In this document: in pieces, positions 4,572 to 23,324 of the stretch
Layout: the number at the start of each line of letters is the position of its first letter
How positions within the stretch are numbered: the stretch's first letter is position 1
Source: an uncultured Granulosicoccaceae bacterium
GTDB lineage: Bacteria; Pseudomonadota; Gammaproteobacteria; Granulosicoccales; Granulosicoccaceae
Assembly: GCA_938035525.1 (NCBI GenBank)
Contig: CALHOI010000038.1
Coordinates: 1-64,000 of the forward strand
Direction of reading: 5' to 3'
DNA length: 64,000 bases
Position numbers and translations under genes: made by a program
The notes under the pieces: generated by a model
What the model saw: the letters and a program-made list of their open reading frames with translations, nothing else
What the model was told of the DNA's origin: nothing
The model's database searches: none

Positions 4572-5579
4572 CTATATATTGCCCAGAGTGACTTCTACTC
4601 TGAATAAACCACCATAGGCTTGTTTGTAATCGTTAGACGATGACCAACTGACACTTGGCCAGATTTCATAATAAAACCAAGGTCTCCATATGCTGTGCCT
4701 GAAACGAATTCTGGCCTCTACGCCACGAAACCTATCTACAACACCTTCATTTAGCGATGTAGCGTATCCCGTTATGCCCTCAAAAGCGAGCGCCTTACGA
4801 CTACCCAAGTTGGCATACAAGCCGACCGTGTCACCAATAGCGGCGCCTTTGTTACCTTTTCGCCAGCTGACTTCAAATGAATTTCTGAAAAACAACCGAT
4901 CTCGATCAAAAAATACTCTGCGGCTGTCTATGCGAAACCGATTTTCGTAACCCGAAGCTGAGAACAAGGTAAAGCTATTACTAAAATTATTGGTAAACCC
5001 TAAAATGGAATTGCGCTTATAACCGATGTTCAATCGACCGAATATTTGTGCCTTGTCGTCACGATATCGAGCACCAATATCGTAGTTAAGCTTAAAAGTA
5101 TCTCGCGCTGTTCGGATAAAACGCAATGCCAAAGCAACGTCATTATTTTCGTTAGTAGCTAATTGCTCTCGCTGCGCAGCATCGGTATTGGCTGCACTGC
5201 TATCGTCGTCTTCTGTACTCAGTAGCAGTCTGAAGCGTTGCTGTGATTGCGGCAGTACAATACGAAGTTTGACCGTAGCTGCAAGCTTTAAATCTTCTGC
5301 ACCCGGCTTGATGGTATCAACTCGGATTCTGGCCCAACTGGTATTGAGCTGCTCACCTTCCTCACCCACACCAATAAAATCGTCAACCTGAACAATGAAT
5401 CGACTAAATCGGTCGCTGAATTTTTCATGTGTCTCATCAACGATATCGCCAACATCCTGGAACACATTGCGCTCTGAATCATCTTTGCTTTCATTGTCGG
5501 GCTGATCATCAGCCCACAGAGCACTGCTGCAAATGCTTAAATACAATGCGCTTAAAAATAGTGTGCGGGCGTAAATCAC
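4572..5579 (-). CDS. Predicted outer-membrane beta-barrel protein of unknown function
   Basis: 335 aa with an N-terminal signal peptide (LFLSALYLSICSSALWA, cleavage near residue 23), then an acidic linker (QPDNESKDDSERNVF). The rest alternates polar and aromatic/hydrophobic residues in short strands (for example FKLNYDIGARYR, FGRLNIGYKR, WFYYEIWPSVSW), as in outer-membrane barrels. I do not recognise a named family. The start is a GTG whose first bases form a GTGA overlap with the hisC stop (5576-5579), so it is probably translationally coupled to hisC, an odd partner for an envelope protein. Confidence 0.7.
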   Translation of the reverse strand: MIYARTLFLSALYLSICSSALWADDQPDNESKDDSERNVFQDVGDIVDETHEKFSDRFSRFIVQVDDFIGVGEEGEQLNTSWARIRVDTIKPGAEDLKLAATVKLRIVLPQSQQRFRLLLSTEDDDSSAANTDAAQREQLATNENNDVALALRFIRTARDTFKLNYDIGARYRDDKAQIFGRLNIGYKRNSILGFTNNFSNSFTLFSASGYENRFRIDSRRVFFDRDRLFFRNSFEVSWRKGNKGAAIGDTVGLYANLGSRKALAFEGITGYATSLNEGVVDRFRGVEARIRFRHSIWRPWFYYEIWPSVSWSSSNDYKQAYGGLFRVEVTLGNI

Positions 5580-7910: not shown

Positions 7911-9500
7911 ATGCTAAACAGCTTCGATTATGTGGTCATCGGTGCAGGCTCCGCGGGCTGCGTTATGGCCAACCGTTTATCAGCCGATGGCACAACCAGC
8001 GTTGCCTTACTCGAAGCCGGCGCTCGTGACTGGAACCCTTGGATCCACGTACCTGTTGGTTACTTTAAAACCATACACAATCCGTCTACTGACTGGTGTT
8101 ACGAGACCGAGCCCGACCCCGGACTCAATGGTCGCTCACTAAAATGGCCACGTGGCAAGGTGCTTGGCGGCAGCAGTTCGATTAATGGGCTGCTGTATGT
8201 TCGCGGCCAACATCAAGACTACGATCGATGGGCAGAACTGGGTTGCACCGGCTGGTCTTACGACGACGTCCTGCCCTACTTTCGCAAAGCCGAAAACCAA
8301 TCACGCGGTGAGAACGAATACCACGGTGTCAACGGCCCTCTGCAAGTCAGCGATATGAGCTTCAAACGTGCCATATGTGACGACTTTATAAAAGGCGTTG
8401 CAGAAATGGGCACACCAATATCCGATGACAACAACGGCGCAGAGCAGGAAGGTGTCGGGTATTTTCAGCTAACCGCGCATAACGGCCGGCGTTGCAGCGC
8501 GGCGGTCGCATACTTGAAAAACATAAAAAATCGACCCAATCTGACCATCCTGACCCATGCAATGGCAGAACGTATCGGTTTTGAAAACGGTCGGGCCCAC
8601 ACGGTCCACATTAAGCACAAAGGCGAGCCCAGGGTACTAAATGCAAACAGGGAGATTATTTTGTGTGGCGGTGCAATTAACTCACCTCAATTGTTGCAAC
8701 TCTCAGGTATAGGCCCGGGTCAACTGCTACAAGATCATGGCATTGAGGTTATCGTTGACTCTCCCGATGTTGGTCAAAACCTGCAAGACCATCTGCAAAT
8801 CAGATCGGTCTACAAAACGGTTGCCGCCAATACACTAAACGACGAATTATCAAATTCGTTTCAAAAAGTGCGAGCTGGCCTGACGTACCTGACCAGCAGA
8901 AGCGGGCCTTTAAGCATGGCAGCCAGCCAGGTCTATGCTTTTTGCCGCACTCGTCTTTCAAACGAAAGACCAGACATCCAATATCATTTTCAACCGCTCA
9001 GTGCTGACAGCCCAGGAGAAGGCCTGCATCCGTTTTCTGCTATCACAGCATCGGTTTGCCAGCTTAGGCCAGAGAGTCGCGGCACCATTTTGATTAAATC
9101 GCCCGACCCGAGCGTACACCCGACAATCAAACCCAATTACTTGTCTACCGACCTGGACTGCCAAACTGCGATAGAATCCATACGGCACACCCGGCGGGTC
9201 ATGCAATCAAACGCGATGCGTGGTCACATAAAAGAAGAGTATGTGCCCGACCCCAACGCTAACACTGACGACGAGCTATTGAACCAGGCGCGCGACATTT
9301 CCAACACGATTTATCACCCGGTGGGCACCTGCAGAATGGGAGCCGATGAGCAATCGGTGCTTGACCCGGAACTACGAGTCAGAGGGGTTGCGGGACTACG
9401 CGTGGTAGACGCATCGGTGATGCCCGAAATTGTCTCCGGAAATACCAATGCGCCCACCATAATGATTGCCGAGCGCGCAGCGGACCTTATCCTTGGTTAA
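7911..9500 (+). CDS. GMC-family FAD-dependent oxidoreductase (choline/alcohol dehydrogenase-like)
   Basis: 529 aa flavoprotein oxidising an alcohol to an aldehyde. Seen in order: ADP-binding GAGSAGCVMANRLS (12-25), the GMC signature 1 region RGKVLGGSSSINGLLYVRG, GGAINSPQLLQLSGIGP (signature 2), the catalytic His region YHPVGTCRMG and the terminal GNTNAPTIMIAERAAD. The substrate is not determinable; choline, polyethylene glycol and aliphatic alcohol dehydrogenases share this build. It precedes pta by 8 bases and faces the IclR gene, so alcohol oxidation coupled to acyl-phosphate/acyl-CoA metabolism is a reasonable inference. Confidence 0.93.
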   Translation: MLNSFDYVVIGAGSAGCVMANRLSADGTTSVALLEAGARDWNPWIHVPVGYFKTIHNPSTDWCYETEPDPGLNGRSLKWPRGKVLGGSSSINGLLYVRGQHQDYDRWAELGCTGWSYDDVLPYFRKAENQSRGENEYHGVNGPLQVSDMSFKRAICDDFIKGVAEMGTPISDDNNGAEQEGVGYFQLTAHNGRRCSAAVAYLKNIKNRPNLTILTHAMAERIGFENGRAHTVHIKHKGEPRVLNANREIILCGGAINSPQLLQLSGIGPGQLLQDHGIEVIVDSPDVGQNLQDHLQIRSVYKTVAANTLNDELSNSFQKVRAGLTYLTSRSGPLSMAASQVYAFCRTRLSNERPDIQYHFQPLSADSPGEGLHPFSAITASVCQLRPESRGTILIKSPDPSVHPTIKPNYLSTDLDCQTAIESIRHTRRVMQSNAMRGHIKEEYVPDPNANTDDELLNQARDISNTIYHPVGTCRMGADEQSVLDPELRVRGVAGLRVVDASVMPEIVSGNTNAPTIMIAERAADLILG

Positions 9501-10683: not shown

Positions 10684-11814
10684 ATGGATGTGAGAATCGC
10701 CGAGACCCAAACCATAAGTCCAGCATTGCTGGATGCGTGGCAGCGGCTATTTGAATCATCCGTTGAGGCGCGCTTCTATCATCACCCCCACTGGCTACAG
10801 TGCGTTGCAGATCACTTAGCACCCGGCACACTAAAACTGGGTTTAGTGTTTGTTCGAGAACAATTACAAATGGTGTTGCCTGTTCTGAATTCAGGAAAGT
10901 CTGGATGTCGCATGTCTCATCCTGAACATGACCATCTGTCACTTAACGATGTACTGATACACCCCGAGCTACAAGCGGACAGCGCGGCTGTTCTTAATGC
11001 CTTTGACAGTGCACTAAACAAACTTAATTCTGGCTGGGCCGACTGGCAAATAGCTAATGTGCCCCACAGCAGCACGCTGTTAACATCACTTGCTTCGATC
11101 GACAACTCGATTAATGCTGACAACCCAGCAGCCACCACCGTTAACAACCAAACGGCGAAGTTGGCCCCCAGATGGCAACTGAAACCAACACGTTACTCGG
11201 CAAGCTTCCCGTGTACTGCCGATGCATGTCCACCACATGGAAAACTACGTCGTAATCTTCGTCGCCTGAGAAAGCAACTAACACAAAAAGGTGCGGTTAG
11301 AGTTGAGTGTGCAAAAACGCCAGACGCTCTGGATGCTGCGTACAGTCAGTTTTTAGCAGTAGAGGCATCAGGATGGAAAGGTACCAATGCTAACGCCACA
11401 GCTATTGAGACAAATCATTCGCTAAAACAGTTTTATCAATCACTGTTAACGCCAAGCACACCAGGCATTGAACCTGAAATTAATTTGCTGTGGTGCGAAG
11501 ATCAATGCATAGCTGTGCAATTCGGTTTACGAACTGAAAATTGTTTGAGCTTGCTAAAAATTGGCTACGATGAACAATACGCACAGTTTTCACCGGGTTA
11601 TCTACTGCTTGAATCTGTACTGGAACAAGCGCAAGAGCGAGGCATCACTACACTGAGCCTGGTGACCTCACCGACGTGGGCAGATCGATGGCACCCAGAG
11701 ACTGTACCAGTGTGGCACATCAAGCACTACAACGATTCTACAGCCGGAAGTGCTCTGCACCATATCGATCGCTTAAAGCAAGCGGCTAAATCCAAGCTAA
11801 AAAGGGCCGCATAA
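10684..11814 (+). CDS. GNAT-fold N-acyltransferase, CelD/FemAB-like
   Basis: 376 aa soluble protein with the layout of the GNAT_6 (CelD/BcsL-like) acyltransferases: N-terminal ARFYHHPHWLQCVADH, a basic central stretch (KLRRNLRRLRKQLTQKG, about residues 185-201) typical of these enzymes, and a C-terminal GNAT-like half with AVQFGLRTENCLSLLKIG and FSPGYLLLESVLEQA. Such enzymes modify sugars or amino groups in polysaccharide and secondary-metabolite clusters. It ends 5 bases before the carbamoyltransferase start, so the two are surely cotranscribed. The acyl donor and acceptor are unknown. Confidence 0.8.
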   Translation: MDVRIAETQTISPALLDAWQRLFESSVEARFYHHPHWLQCVADHLAPGTLKLGLVFVREQLQMVLPVLNSGKSGCRMSHPEHDHLSLNDVLIHPELQADSAAVLNAFDSALNKLNSGWADWQIANVPHSSTLLTSLASIDNSINADNPAATTVNNQTAKLAPRWQLKPTRYSASFPCTADACPPHGKLRRNLRRLRKQLTQKGAVRVECAKTPDALDAAYSQFLAVEASGWKGTNANATAIETNHSLKQFYQSLLTPSTPGIEPEINLLWCEDQCIAVQFGLRTENCLSLLKIGYDEQYAQFSPGYLLLESVLEQAQERGITTLSLVTSPTWADRWHPETVPVWHIKHYNDSTAGSALHHIDRLKQAAKSKLKRAA

Positions 11815-11819
11815 AAACC

Positions 11820-13517
11820 ATGATCGTTCTCGGGCTCAATTATTATTTTCACGATTCATCGGCAGCATTGGTTATTGACGGCGAACTGGTTGTTGCTCTG
11901 GAAGAAGAGCGCTTCACCCGCAACAAGCACACACGCGAATTCCCAGAGAACGCGGTGCGCGAATGCCTGCGTATTGCGGGTATTTCAGCCGATCAGATTG
12001 ATCATGTAGCAGTATCTATACAACCCACCCACAGCTGGGATAAGAAAGTGCTATACGCACTTAAAAAACCGCATAAAGCAGCCCCATTTATTAAGCACGA
12101 GCTAATAAATGGCTTCTTTAAACAGCGTCGATTCAAAAAGTGGTGTACCGATACCTTTGGTGCGGGCAAAGCCCCAAACATTGCATTCATTGAGCATCAC
12201 ATGTCACACGCAGCGGGTACTTTTTTTGTATCACCCTACAAAGATGCTGCCATCATGGCAATAGATGGCTCTGGAGAGTGGGCATGCGCATGGCTAGGTC
12301 ATGGCAAAGACAACAAGGTTAGTTGTTTCAATGAATCTGTTTTTCCAAACTCATTGGGTTCAGTGTACGAATCGGTTACGGAGTTTTGCGGTTTTAAACC
12401 AAATTATGATGAAGGCAAGACCATGGGCCTTGCGCCTCTTGGCGATGCTTCCAGGTTTATCGACGACGCACGCAAAACAGTTAGCGTGAGCGACGAAGGT
12501 CAAATCACAGTAGACCTAAGTTACTTTAACTATCAGTTTTGGGGTTACCAGCGCTGCGCACCAAAATTCTACGAGGTGTTTGGAACACCTCGAGCCATGG
12601 ATGGAGAATTCGAGGAACATCATCACGACGTAGCAGCCGCATTCCAGCAGGTTTTGGAAGAATGTGCGCTAAAAATGGCGGCATTTCTGAAACAGAAAAC
12701 ACAAGCCCCGCATTTGATTATTGCCGGTGGGGTTGCGCTTAATAGCGTTATGAATGGGCGCCTTTTAAGAGAAGCCGGATTCGAGGATGTTTATATAATG
12801 CCTGCAGCCGGGGACAATGGCACCTCCATTGGAGCAGCATATACTCTGCTGCATCAAGAATTGAATTTGCCACGTTCGTTTGTACACGACAACCCTTACG
12901 TGGGTAACGAGTACAGCGATGACGAAATAGAGCAAACCTTAAAAAAGTTTAAACTAAACTATAAATCAAGTAGTGATATCGCTGCCGATACTGCCGATTT
13001 ACTTGAAGCAGGTAAGATCGGCGGGTGGTTTCAAGGACGAATGGAAATAGGTCCCCGTGCGCTTGGATCTCGGAGCATCGTTGCCAACCCCGCGTTTCCT
13101 GACATGAAAGATAAAATAAACGCCGAGGTAAAATTTCGCGAAGCCTACAGACCCTTTGCGCCATCGGCAACAATCGAAGCTGCAAAAGAATTTTTCGACA
13201 TAGATGTTGAAGCACCTTTTATGCTAAAAGTATGTCAAGTCAAAGAAGACAAGCAATCTGTAATACCAGCAATTACTCATGTCGACGGTAGTGCACGACT
13301 GCAAACGGTCAGATCAGAATCTCATCCCCTTTATCACGCACTAATAAGCCAGTTGGGCAACCGTACAGACGTACCAGTTGTTCTTAACACAAGCTTCAAC
13401 ATTCAAGGGGAGCCGGTTTGTGAGTCACCACGAGACGCCATTCGCTGTTTCTATTCTACTGGCCTCGATTTTCTTGCTATTGGTTCATTTCTAATTGAAA
13501 AGCAGGCGGCACAGTGA
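11820..13517 (+). CDS. NodU/CmcH-family O-carbamoyltransferase
   Basis: 565 aa, full length for enzymes that move a carbamoyl group from carbamoyl phosphate via ATP to a hydroxyl (NodU, CmcH, TobZ, SxtI). N-terminal Kae1-like domain: GLNYYFHDSSAAL at 5-17, metal-binding HHMSHAAG near residue 126, GGVALNSVMNG and AAGDNGTSIGAAY. C-terminal domain: GRMEIGPRALGSRSI near residue 406 and VVLNTSFNIQGEPV. The acceptor is unknown; no nod, antibiotic or saxitoxin genes lie nearby. The stop overlaps the next gene's start by GTGA. Confidence 0.95.
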   Translation: MIVLGLNYYFHDSSAALVIDGELVVALEEERFTRNKHTREFPENAVRECLRIAGISADQIDHVAVSIQPTHSWDKKVLYALKKPHKAAPFIKHELINGFFKQRRFKKWCTDTFGAGKAPNIAFIEHHMSHAAGTFFVSPYKDAAIMAIDGSGEWACAWLGHGKDNKVSCFNESVFPNSLGSVYESVTEFCGFKPNYDEGKTMGLAPLGDASRFIDDARKTVSVSDEGQITVDLSYFNYQFWGYQRCAPKFYEVFGTPRAMDGEFEEHHHDVAAAFQQVLEECALKMAAFLKQKTQAPHLIIAGGVALNSVMNGRLLREAGFEDVYIMPAAGDNGTSIGAAYTLLHQELNLPRSFVHDNPYVGNEYSDDEIEQTLKKFKLNYKSSSDIAADTADLLEAGKIGGWFQGRMEIGPRALGSRSIVANPAFPDMKDKINAEVKFREAYRPFAPSATIEAAKEFFDIDVEAPFMLKVCQVKEDKQSVIPAITHVDGSARLQTVRSESHPLYHALISQLGNRTDVPVVLNTSFNIQGEPVCESPRDAIRCFYSTGLDFLAIGSFLIEKQAAQ

Positions 13518-13945
13518 GAGGCATAAGCAGCAATATGATTTTTAGCCTGATATTAGGTCTGCTTATAGCGGTTGCAGCCTGGCCAGTATTTGTTGCCGTC
13601 AATATTGCGCTTGCCTGGTTAATGGGCGAGGGCTCGGTTATTGATTTATGGAATCTTGAACCCAAACGTAATCTTGTGGCTGACTTTATCTATGGTTACA
13701 AAATCAGTGCACCAATAGCTATATTGCTGGGCATCGTAGCGGTTATTGATTTTCAGCTGCTTACCCGATTTAAAACTACGGGCTATTTCTCTGGTATCTC
13801 AATTATTCTATGTTGCATAGCGGTGGCGTTTGTCTTTTACAAAAATCCGACGCATGTATTTACCAGTTTCGTTGCTACCGGTCTCATATTATGGCTTGTC
13901 TATAAAATTTTGGATATTGGTTGCAGACTCAGGAGAGTAGGATAA
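13514..13945 (+). CDS. Small polytopic membrane protein (unknown) coupled to carbamoyltransferase
   Basis: 143 aa from a GTG that shares GTGA with the carbamoyltransferase stop. A second start is possible at ATG 13535 in the same frame. Four hydrophobic segments are visible: near residues 8-35 (IFSLILGLLIAVAAW onward), 60-82 (APIAILLGIVAVID), 92-110 and 117-134 (FTSFVATGLILWLVYK). The C-terminus is basic. The position recalls small membrane proteins that follow carbamoyltransferases in some natural-product and polysaccharide clusters (for example SxtJ after SxtI), but I see no sequence match to SxtJ. Its stop TAA shares one base with the next ATG. Confidence 0.75.
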   Translation: MRGISSNMIFSLILGLLIAVAAWPVFVAVNIALAWLMGEGSVIDLWNLEPKRNLVADFIYGYKISAPIAILLGIVAVIDFQLLTRFKTTGYFSGISIILCCIAVAFVFYKNPTHVFTSFVATGLILWLVYKILDIGCRLRRVG

Positions 13946-15426
13946 TGCTACGCACTCGCCTTGCATCATGTTTTGTTGCTGCAACCTTACTGACAACACA
14001 AACCACCAGCGCAGACCAGGCCATACTGATAGGTGGAGGATACAACCTTCAAGGGTCACAAGGACAAATAGAACTTAATGTACGTTGGGTTCAAAATGTT
14101 ATAAAACAGGCGAACATACCTGTCACCACCTTTTTTACTGATGGCGATGCCCCCGATGCCGATGTGCACTATTATCACGTCGAATCGGAGAGCTCTGAGG
14201 CAAGCGCAGAAGACGAACTGGCCAAGCAACTGGAACCAGTTGCCCGACTATTCAACAATCACATTCAAAATCAACAGCGTTTTCGTAACCATCAAGTCGA
14301 GGATGTACTTGGCTCAACCCACGCCGATAAATTATCGACTGCTTTAACTGATCTTTTCTCATCTTCGCCCGACGACCCAAGCTTAATTATTTACAACGGA
14401 CATGGAAAACAATCAAAGACCAGCGTCGATAAAGTAACGCTGGAACTGTGGGATAACACTCAGCTAACAGCCGAAGAGTTGCACGGCATACTTGATCATT
14501 CTAACGCGTCGACTCGATTCGTTTTTACTCAATGCTACTCGGGCGGCTTTCATCGGCTGGCCTATAAAAACCCCAGCCATGGGCAAGAACTGGCATCGCC
14601 AACAAGATGTGGGTTTACTGCAGAGTCTGCTTACAGATTGGCAGAAGGATGTTCCGCCAGCATTGAATCGGACGACTATCGCGACTACACCACATTCTTC
14701 TTTGCCGCTCTTAACGGCTACGACAGAGATGGAGAAATTCTCCCCATTGACACTGACTCCGACAGAGATGGCGTTGTCGGATTACGCGAAGCCCATCTTT
14801 ATACGCTTGAAAATGCTTACAGCACAGACTTATCTCGATCAACCAGTGAAGATTATCTAGGCGCGTGGGAGCCATGGTATTTGAAGTGGGTGGCCGATAC
14901 TTCCGGTTTACCAAGCAACGAATACGCTAAGCTGTTTCGAAACGTGGCGCATGAATACGGCATAGAGTTAACAGGCCATCCTTCAAAAGCAATAAGAAGC
15001 ATGATTAAAATGGACGGCCAGAAACTCGAAAGCCTTGCAGCCCGCCGCTCTGCTTTGCATGAAGAACTAAGCAAAATTCAACACTCGCTTATTAGCGAGG
15101 CTGCCGATAAATGGCCCGCACTATCCGGACCTTACACGGCCGCATTTCAAGTTATGGCAGCGTCTGGCGAGATGCTCAGTATGGCTCAATGGCTGAGCCA
15201 ACAACCAGATTACCAACGCATTGTTGAACTGCAAAACGAAGATTCACAACTCAGTGATGACATGCTTGATGTTGAAAGGCATACAACACAAATGCAGAAA
15301 CTGATGCACTTCAGAAAATTGTCCAGACTAAAACACCAACTTTATCAATATGGCTCGCAGAGTGAGATTGATGCCTATGAGTCGTTGGTGAGTTGCGAAA
15401 GCCAGCCCCTGGTTTTTGCACAATAA
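13945..15426 (+). CDS. Exported clan CD cysteine protease-like protein (caspase/legumain type) with EF-hand loop
   Basis: 493 aa from the ATG at 13945, preceded by AGGAG. Signal peptide residues 1-23 (LASCFVAATLLTTQTTSA). The core has a strand-His motif SLIIYNGHGKQ (His153) and a strand-Cys motif FVFTQCYSGGF (Cys197), the spacing and context of clan CD peptidases (C13/C14). A perfect EF-hand loop lies at residues 271-282 (Asp271, Asp273, Asp275, Gly276, Val278, Glu282). The C-terminal third is helical and charged, with a possible coiled coil (about 375-480). Fourth gene of a coupled unit with a carbamoyltransferase. Activity and substrate are inferred only; an inactive carbohydrate- or protein-binding relative is possible. 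Confidence 0.75.
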   Translation: MLRTRLASCFVAATLLTTQTTSADQAILIGGGYNLQGSQGQIELNVRWVQNVIKQANIPVTTFFTDGDAPDADVHYYHVESESSEASAEDELAKQLEPVARLFNNHIQNQQRFRNHQVEDVLGSTHADKLSTALTDLFSSSPDDPSLIIYNGHGKQSKTSVDKVTLELWDNTQLTAEELHGILDHSNASTRFVFTQCYSGGFHRLAYKNPSHGQELASPTRCGFTAESAYRLAEGCSASIESDDYRDYTTFFFAALNGYDRDGEILPIDTDSDRDGVVGLREAHLYTLENAYSTDLSRSTSEDYLGAWEPWYLKWVADTSGLPSNEYAKLFRNVAHEYGIELTGHPSKAIRSMIKMDGQKLESLAARRSALHEELSKIQHSLISEAADKWPALSGPYTAAFQVMAASGEMLSMAQWLSQQPDYQRIVELQNEDSQLSDDMLDVERHTTQMQKLMHFRKLSRLKHQLYQYGSQSEIDAYESLVSCESQPLVFAQ

Positions 15427-21315: not shown

Positions 21316-22929
21316 TCATTCCTGGTTGTCTTCAAGAATAAAACTTGCCGCTCTTTCACCTACCATAATAGCCGGTGCATTGGTGTTTCCAGTAGGTATA
21401 GTAGGAAACACTGATGCATCAGCGACCCTTAACCCCTTAACACCATGCACATTCAATTTTGCGTCAACGACGGAAGTTGAGTCATCATCGCCCATTTTAC
21501 AAGTGCCGCACTGATGGAACACCGTCCAGGCATTATCTCTTACTGCACGCATAAGTTGTTCGTCACTACTATATTGATCACCAGGAAGCAGCTCTTCTTC
21601 AATAACAGCTTTTAGCGCAGGAGCTGCAGTTAACTGTCGCATTAAACGCATACCTTTAAGCATCAGGTCTTGATCAGCTTGGGTATCAAGGTAGTTTGGC
21701 ACCAGACGCGGAGCAACCAGCGGATCGGCCGACTGAATTTCAAGATGCCCTTTACTGCTCGGTTTGCAGGGGTTGAAGCCAATCAAAAAACCGGGAAACG
21801 GGTCTGGTTTTATAAGCGGTCGCGTGCCCACAGGCGCTCGCGTGTAACTCACTGGTGAAAAATACAATTGCAGATCGGGAGTTGTGCTCGATTTACCCAA
21901 ACTCACAAAGCCACCAGCTTGATTTAGGCTTAACGTTAATGGACCACTGCGCCGCAGTAAAAACTGTAACCCCGCTTTTAATCTGCCTGACCAAGGGCGC
22001 AACTGCTGGTTTAGAGAATCTACGTTAGTCCTGCAAACGAGGTCTGCACCGAGATGATCTTGCAAATTCCGGCCAACCAGAGGTGAATCGTGCACAACAT
22101 CAATACCAAGGTTTCGCAGCAAAGGCGCTGGCCCAATACCAGACAATTGAAGTAACTGAGGTGTGTTTATGGCACCCGCACACAAAATAATTTCCCGTCG
22201 CGCTTTCACCACATTATGTGTTCCACCAATTTGGTAACTGACACCAGACGCGACTTTGTCTTTAAAACCAATACCAGTTACCTGTGCTTCGGTTTTAACA
22301 CTTAGGTTAGGGCGGTGCATTGCGGGGTGTAAGTAGCAAACCGAAGAAGAGGCGCGTAAGCCGTTTCGAGTATTAATTTGATACAACGCCGCGCCCTCCA
22401 TAGACTCTGCATTGTAGTCAGGGTTGAATGGGATTTGACATTCTTGCGCCGCCTTTAAATAACTTTGACACAATGGGTGGGCGTCAGCTGATATATCGTG
22501 AACCGACAACGGCCCACCCGTGCCACGATAACGATTACTGCCGCCCGACCAATCTTCCATTGCCTTAAATACGGGCTCGACATTAGACCACGCCCAACCG
22601 CTGGCAACATTGGACCATTCCTGGTAATCGTTAGGATGCCCTCGCACATAAACCATGGCGTTTATAGAGCTTGACCCGCCCAGAACTTTCCCTCTGGGCC
22701 AATAGGAAGGTCGGTTACTTAAAGCGTCGACGGGCTCTGTTTGGTACTTCCAGTTAACTTTTTCATCGTAATACACTTTCCCATAGCCCAATGGCATACG
22801 AACGAAAAAACGATTATCGTTCGGGCCTGCCTCAAGTAACAAAACCGAGTCACGTCCACTGGCACTGAGTTTGTTGGCCAACACCGAGCCAGCAGAGCCA
22901 GCGCCAACAATGATGTAGTCAAAAGTCAC
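21316..22929 (-). CDS. GMC-family FAD-dependent oxidoreductase (second copy)
   Basis: 537 aa from a GTG at 22929 that shares GTGA with the MAPEG stop; an upstream GTG at 22953 would add eight residues but overlap MAPEG by 28 bases. The preferred start gives MTFDYIIVGAGSAGSVL, matching the paralogue at 7.9 kb. Seen: RGKVLGGSSSINAMVYVRG, AGAINTPQLLQLSGIGP, the catalytic region VFHQCGTCKMGDD and GNTNAPAIMVGERAAS. The two GMC proteins are clearly related but not near-identical, and have different neighbours. Likely an alcohol or choline-type dehydrogenase; substrate unknown. Confidence 0.93.
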   Translation of the reverse strand: MTFDYIIVGAGSAGSVLANKLSASGRDSVLLLEAGPNDNRFFVRMPLGYGKVYYDEKVNWKYQTEPVDALSNRPSYWPRGKVLGGSSSINAMVYVRGHPNDYQEWSNVASGWAWSNVEPVFKAMEDWSGGSNRYRGTGGPLSVHDISADAHPLCQSYLKAAQECQIPFNPDYNAESMEGAALYQINTRNGLRASSSVCYLHPAMHRPNLSVKTEAQVTGIGFKDKVASGVSYQIGGTHNVVKARREIILCAGAINTPQLLQLSGIGPAPLLRNLGIDVVHDSPLVGRNLQDHLGADLVCRTNVDSLNQQLRPWSGRLKAGLQFLLRRSGPLTLSLNQAGGFVSLGKSSTTPDLQLYFSPVSYTRAPVGTRPLIKPDPFPGFLIGFNPCKPSSKGHLEIQSADPLVAPRLVPNYLDTQADQDLMLKGMRLMRQLTAAPALKAVIEEELLPGDQYSSDEQLMRAVRDNAWTVFHQCGTCKMGDDDSTSVVDAKLNVHGVKGLRVADASVFPTIPTGNTNAPAIMVGERAASFILEDNQE

Positions 22930-23324
22930 GTGATTAAAAGCCAGACCAGCCACACCACATTAACAATACTTAGGGCAAGCATTGAAGTCAAAGTCAGCTG
23001 CGTTCCCATAACGCGCATTTTAATAGGCGCTTGGGTATCACGCATACCAACCGGGTGCAAAATGCGACCAGCAATGAAGACCATTGCCAGCAATGCGAGC
23101 AGTAATCGATGCACACCGTTAATTTCAGCACAAGCCAACAATATGAGGGCCAGCGGAGCGTACTCCAACAAATTACCCTGGGCTCGCTGCGCCCGAAGCA
23201 GCAATTCACTACCACCATCGCCAATAGCTATTTTTTCTTTACGCCTTATGCCAACCACTCTAAGCGATAGCATGATATTTAAGGCAGCTAATATAGCGGC
23301 GCTCAGGCCAGTGATATAAAGCAT
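22926..23324 (-). CDS. MAPEG-family membrane protein
   Basis: 132 aa, four hydrophobic helices, with the bacterial MAPEG pattern: LRVVGIRRKEKIAIGDGG near residue 22, AQRAQGNLLEYAPLALILL (the conserved Arg/Asn/Glu of the glutathione site) and FIAGRILHPVGM. Relatives are glutathione-dependent transferases or peroxidases of the membrane. It is coupled to the GMC gene by a GTGA overlap and lies downstream of the lipocalin gene. Confidence 0.92.
   Translation of the reverse strand: MLYITGLSAAILAALNIMLSLRVVGIRRKEKIAIGDGGSELLLRAQRAQGNLLEYAPLALILLACAEINGVHRLLLALLAMVFIAGRILHPVGMRDTQAPIKMRVMGTQLTLTSMLALSIVNVVWLVWLLIT

Follow-up and report, generated by a model that had tools for sequence, protein, structure and literature searches.

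Clan CD of the cysteine peptidases is defined by a catalytic His-Gly motif and a (Gln/Glu)-x-Cys-type motif, each placed after a hydrophobic strand, and PorU belongs to this clan. PorU is described in the literature as the sortase of type IX secretion, which attaches cargo to A-LPS. The locus considered here combines a peptidase with these motifs with enzymes of quite another kind. It lies in a 64,000-nucleotide stretch of an uncultured Granulosicoccaceae bacterium (contig CALHOI010000038.1, positions 1 to 64,000; hereafter the window), in which four co-directional open reading frames on the plus strand, 10684..15426, encode a GNAT_6 acyltransferase (gene 1), a NodU-type O-carbamoyltransferase (gene 2), a four-helix membrane protein (gene 3) and an exported clan-CD-like peptidase (gene 4; Table 1). 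We argue that these genes form a recurring unit, the core of which, among relatives, is the membrane protein with the peptidase, and we tentatively propose that the unit modifies the cell envelope. Genomes and loci are referred to by our own numbers (G and L) where they have to be told apart.

The four genes are tightly joined. The GNAT frame ends at 11814 and the NodU frame begins at 11820, leaving a gap of 5 bases, the NodU stop and the gene 3 start overlap in GTGA (13514-13517), and genes 3 and 4 share a TAATG; the junctions described in the initial annotation are thus borne out in the sequence. We place the start of gene 4 at the ATG at 13945, the mechanically called frame beginning earlier, at TTG 13921. 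Judging from this spacing, the four genes would be carried on one transcript, and a promoter and terminator scan gave fewer promoter-like sites than its shuffles did. The junction count in Table 1 took the start nearest to the stop, which favours short distances, and skipped minus-strand loci (e.g. L112) and three duplicate loci. Such overlaps, together with an order and partners that recur in other families, are more than chance.

Table 1. Features of the four-gene unit, in window coordinates.
Feature	Position	Strand	Basis
GNAT_6-type acyltransferase, 376 aa, no signal peptide by eye	10684..11814	+	PF13480, E 1.1e-28
NodU/CmcH/TobZ-type O-carbamoyltransferase, 565 aa, distinct subfamily	11820..13517	+	PF02543 and PF16861 over cut-off
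Small integral membrane protein, 143 aa, about four hydrophobic helices	13514..13945	+	Co-occurrence with the peptidase in relatives
TAATG stop-start overlap of the membrane protein and peptidase genes	13943..13947	+	Sequence; 24 of the 30 loci measured overlap by 1 or 4 bases
Exported clan-CD-like cysteine peptidase, 493 aa (predicted)	13945..15426	+	Motifs, alignments, C13/C14 profile match
Codons of the EF-hand-like loop and the following Ala (DSDRDGVVGLREA), gene 4 residues 271-283	14755..14793	+	Pattern in 35 of 38 aligned relatives

By its sequence, gene 4 is a clan CD peptidase that Pfam scores place in neither family C13 (legumain/GPI8) nor family C14 (caspase/metacaspase/orthocaspase). 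Its segments IIYNGHG and FVFTQCYSGGF fit the two clan motifs and, as in C13 and C14, follow hydrophobic blocks; a signal peptide (...TTSA/DQA) was judged by eye. The catalytic His153 and Cys197 are each kept in 37 of 38 aligned relatives (alignment A2 and the tree described below omit the partial peptidases L078, L083 and L086). The sole exception, from G026, has lost both (His to Leu, Cys to Ser), and this protein (L046:9401-10918, minus strand; L067 is the same genome) looks like a natural pseudoenzyme that has kept its membrane partner and stands without GNAT and NodU. What sets gene 4 apart from C13 and C14 is the lack of a Pfam model match, a membrane partner that is constant among relatives, three further conserved cysteines (Cys222 in 38/38, Cys236 and Cys484 in 37/38) and an EF-hand-like loop at residues 271-282. 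No Pfam or NCBIfam model scored over its cut-off against gene 4, PF01650 and PF00656 giving nothing at E 0.1. When the 38 relatives were compared with Pfam, the best matches were to C13 in one member (E 0.0016) and to the caspase-like Raptor_N in six (E 0.0021), with no C14 match among the 25 of 36 families listed.

The relationship emerges when profiles are compared. The hhalign probability was 96.8% to a C13 set of 6 loci and 93.8% to a C14 set of 24, with the catalytic His and Cys both aligned, while controls (the reversed and 19 shuffled profiles, and likewise the NodU, GNAT and membrane-protein profiles) stayed at or below 0.6%; the seeds and five members of these sets came from weak matches of the gene 4 profile itself, which may raise the score, and the remaining members from separate Pfam searches. 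All five weak matches to the peptidase profile from the class sample described below are assigned by Pfam, one to C13 and four to C14. Against the PDB the gene 4 profile found, weakly, 3bij (GSU0716; E 0.021) and metacaspase-1 4f6o (E 0.84) among six listed structures. The product of gene 4 is a predicted enzyme, caspase/legumain-like at the profile level, and it is at that level that the caspase-like character given to it in the initial annotation holds.

The two transferases are easier to place. Gene 1 belongs to GNAT_6 (100.7 bits against PF13480, for a Pfam gathering cut-off of 22), and its family profile found no relative among solved structures at E ≤1. Gene 2 carries both Pfam domains of the O-carbamoyltransferases (PF16861, E 2.1e-68; PF02543, E 1.8e-62), with 212 and 230 bits for Carbam_trans_N and Carbam_trans_C against cut-offs of 24 and 27. 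Its closest solved relative is 7xb6 (E 4.7e-101); TobZ matches at E 1.1e-88, and there is similarity to GdmN as well. It does not reach the NCBIfam NodU equivalog NF041651 (155.9 bits against a cut-off of 1000), and on sequence it is an enzyme of the NodU/CmcH/TobZ group outside NodU proper. Together with its counterparts it makes up a separate subfamily, set off by a gap in identity among full-length matches (at least 49% inside, at most 43% for all others), short C-terminal fragments of other enzymes scoring higher. Within the family NodU is well conserved, with a median identity of 73%, and the peptidase (45%), GNAT (36%) and the membrane protein (32%) far less so. Gene 3, for its part, matched no Pfam or NCBIfam family over cut-off, and the search of its relatives for a known family gave scattered weak Pfam matches, the best in 1 of 27 members (E 0.0004; 25 of 31 families listed).

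Among 95 related genomes (two overlapping locus sets cover the same Granulosicoccaceae genomes, which were counted once), the peptidase is present in 24, the window's own included. The membrane-protein profile, A3, which was built partly from these same loci, matches exactly the same 24 genomes, once in each; the gene adjoins the peptidase gene in 23 and lies at a contig end in G080. The core of the unit among relatives is thus the membrane protein with the peptidase. The full order GNAT-NodU-membrane protein-peptidase runs without interruption in 14 of these genomes, including the window's own, and the peptidases of the other 13 are 42-62% identical. Of the remaining genomes, two have a contig that begins inside NodU (G007, G010), and in G011 and G080 contig ends break the unit up, NodU and GNAT lying terminally on a different contig. 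G056 has the genes as NodU-membrane protein-peptidase-GNAT, and in five genomes (G001, G005, G013, G016, G026) membrane protein and peptidase stand without the other two. Seen from the other side, the NodU subfamily occurs in 20 of the 95 (at least 59% identity, plus a 78% fragment in G007), and 19 of these hold the peptidase, NodU running into a contig end in the twentieth, G032. The association gives a Fisher p of 1.8e-14 over the 95 genomes and 5.8e-4 over the 27 of the same genus, neither value being corrected for relatedness. The claim that the four genes are one unit therefore stands as far as recurrence goes; the unit is not indivisible, however, since GNAT and NodU are absent in 5 of the 24 genomes while membrane protein and peptidase occur together in all of them. 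A search for GNAT or NodU remnants in four gaps where these genes are missing gave a weak and unconfirmed GNAT match in L064 (E 0.005).

The initial annotation had proposed looking for the same order in distant taxa, and there it is indeed found; it is not specific to one strain. A pattern scan of named genomes returned 40 loci, which span Granulosicoccaceae, Sphaerotilus, Leptothrix, Pokkaliibacter, Marinimicrobium, Sulfuriflexus, Thiohalobacter and Chromatiales and include other gammaproteobacterial or proteobacterial metagenome-assembled genomes and one from Phycisphaerales. The exact four-gene order occurs in Thiohalobacter (L072), Pokkaliibacter plantistimulans (L076), Chromatiales (L080) and, by genome code, in two further families (L087, CAKZUS010000110.1; L112). 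In Marinimicrobium the order is GNAT-membrane protein-peptidase, in Sphaerotilus and Leptothrix GNAT is followed by a frame with several hydrophobic helices (homology to the membrane protein not shown) and then by the peptidase, and in L082 membrane protein-peptidase faces NodU-GNAT-GNAT. On a tree of 44 peptidases the full unit sits on basal and scattered branches, so that the four-gene state is probably ancestral; the NodU label changes 10 times and the membrane-protein label 3 times. This tree is a quick one, with SH-aLRT support only and several long branches, and its labels assume the full unit at the contig-cut loci L050, L052, L053 and L074, the membrane protein in Sphaerotilus and Leptothrix, and the absence of GNAT-NodU from L073, where the contig starts a short way upstream. 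Across the 18 loci with all four genes, the pairwise identities of their proteins co-vary (rho 0.80 to 0.91), which also reflects species relatedness.

A GNAT-type gene also lies downstream of or beyond the peptidase at L074:1583-2761, L077:1535-2749, L080:4829-7813, L082:13660-14778 and L087:8783-9670; it is the second one in L080, L082, L087 and, by split contig, L074, as if two acylations were needed. The peptidases of L066 and L070 (the latter from Sulfuriflexus) have a PlsC-like acyltransferase/deformylase group on one side and a ClpB-type gene on the other, and their role may be a different one; the neighbourhoods of L070, L081 and L085 gave no functional clue, and the peptidases of L083 and L086, both cut by contig ends, have no visible partners.

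Broader samples show how specific the linkage is. The peptidase profile has matches in 19 of the 369 genomes of a class sample, and in 14 of these the match extends over most of the profile; 7 of the 8 genomes with a NodU of at least 49% identity also have the peptidase; G119, the one with a close NodU and no peptidase, has the GNAT-NodU pair. NodU-type matches occur in 111 of the 369, and 30 loci among them were examined over about 1.5 kb around NodU (less where a contig ends), with a GNAT profile derived from the unit itself: at least one partner was present at 8 of 8 close loci, and neither GNAT nor membrane protein nor peptidase at any of the 22 next-best ones (full-length identity at most 43%). 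In a phylum sample of 398 genomes the full-length peptidase is found in one, the window's own, with 15 weak core matches elsewhere, and the family is thus rare.

As to function, the initial annotation had the transferases modify an envelope or small-molecule product, and of the two an envelope glycan is preferred, since one exopolysaccharide cluster contains a GNAT-NodU pair from this subfamily. This is the pair of G119 (L151:6964-17131), which lacks the membrane protein and peptidase and is surrounded by a sugar dehydrogenase, a glycosyltransferase, Poly_export and a PF00953 transferase, with two more glycosyltransferase-like frames recognized by eye. The assignment to a glycan rests on this context and on two others: the Marinimicrobium genes adjoin a UDP-sugar dehydrogenase, an epimerase and an XrtA-type polysaccharide deacetylase, and L082 sits among glycosyltransferase-like genes (named from matches below cut-off). 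We therefore lean, with some reserve and at somewhat less than even confidence, towards a conserved envelope-modification unit in which the transferases decorate a surface glycan while the peptidase and its membrane partner process a linked surface protein. In such a scheme the GNAT protein and the O-carbamoyltransferase, as accessory enzymes, would decorate the glycan or its lipid-linked precursor; the peptidase would be exported to the periplasm, its EF-hand-like loop being a probable calcium loop; the membrane protein and the signal-peptide-bearing peptidase would probably work together at the outer face of the inner membrane; and the peptidase would act on a surface protein that assembles with, or attaches to, the decorated glycan. 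The role of the peptidase, be it processing or perhaps anchoring, is the least supported step.

Several observations weigh against this proposal. The NodU subfamily accompanies the peptidase in 19 of the 24 genomes and is locally absent in 5, four of which lack any NodU-type match at E 0.001 in the whole genome; carbamoylation would therefore be an option rather than a requirement. Likewise, 7 of the 14 class-sample genomes with a full-length peptidase lack a NodU of at least 49% identity, and seven distant peptidases (L066, L070, L081, L085, L088, L110, L113) have no partners nearby. The unit's surroundings in Granulosicoccus are metabolic genes (pta, GMC oxidoreductase, asparaginase), with polysaccharide genes not among them, and a PDB search with gene 4 as the only query sequence returned no caspase. 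Two candidate lines of support had to be given up. Poly_export is present in 23 of the 24 genomes with the peptidase and in 45 of the 71 without it (p 0.0015), yet with 47 of the family's 48 genomes carrying it the count says little. A link to the XrtA exosortase/PEP-CTERM clusters, suggested by the deacetylase next to the Marinimicrobium copy, is not matched by co-occurrence: exosortase is found in 5 of 24 peptidase genomes and 15 of 71 others, and the window's own genome gave no match.

It is also conceivable that the operon holds two modules without a common pathway, GNAT-NodU decorating a glycan and membrane protein-peptidase acting as a separate protease for envelope quality control or processing. 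The five genomes with the pair alone, the solitary GNAT-NodU of G119 and the ten changes of the NodU label would all be explained in this way; we nevertheless consider it somewhat less likely than the single unit, given that all NodU-subfamily relatives but the contig-cut G032 hold the peptidase, that gene order is kept across families and that the 22 next-best NodU loci are without partners. Gene 2 has its solved relatives among natural-product enzymes (e.g. TobZ, GdmN and decarbamoylnovobiocin carbamoyltransferase), as would be expected if a secreted small molecule or peptide received its acyl and carbamoyl groups in the cytoplasm, left the cell through the membrane protein and was trimmed by the peptidase. 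In a clustering of the distant neighbourhoods, however, no synthase-like neighbour was seen to recur (most neighbours are unannotated, and a short precursor peptide would have escaped notice), and the informative contexts are polysaccharide genes, which makes this product improbable. Bacterial caspase homologues are often discussed in stress, cell death or defence, but a system of that kind is very improbable here: none of the four proteins has a PADLOC match at E ≤1, the protease seems to be exported, and searches of 72,556 plasmid and 50,697 phage records gave no match to the peptidase, which also speaks against a mobile element.

A more specific form of the envelope-modification proposal would make the membrane protein-peptidase pair a Gram-negative glycan-anchoring transamidase, similar to PorU and GPI8, that cuts exported proteins and joins them to the surface glycan modified by GNAT and NodU. 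We regard this as unlikely. What gene 4 may share with PorU is the role of an exported enzyme acting with surface glycans, which for gene 4 is only a proposal, and its host, unlike that of PorU, is not a Bacteroidetes. Should gene 4 ligate proteins to such a modified glycan, clan CD would gain a further anchoring system beside those of GPI8 and PorU.

No publication on the four-gene combination was found in a literature search covering listings and the beginnings of abstracts, the text of PMC12419801 mentions neither caspase nor carbamoyl, and the exported caspase-like enzyme of gene 4 is apparently undescribed. Its family has no Pfam or NCBIfam model, and neither has its membrane partner, which occurs in those same 24 genomes out of 95; this shared distribution gives an orphan caspase homologue a concrete, testable setting, at the cell surface rather than in the cell-death role usually discussed, and the unit as a whole hints at a so far unstudied means of completing or anchoring the cell surface.

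Two further features of the window lie outside the unit. A 335-residue protein at 4572-5579, exported-looking by eye and without a Pfam family over cut-off, adjoins an aminotransferase that resembles HisC by eye. Two GMC oxidoreductases, about 43% identical and on opposite strands (7911-9500 and 21316-22953), flank the region.

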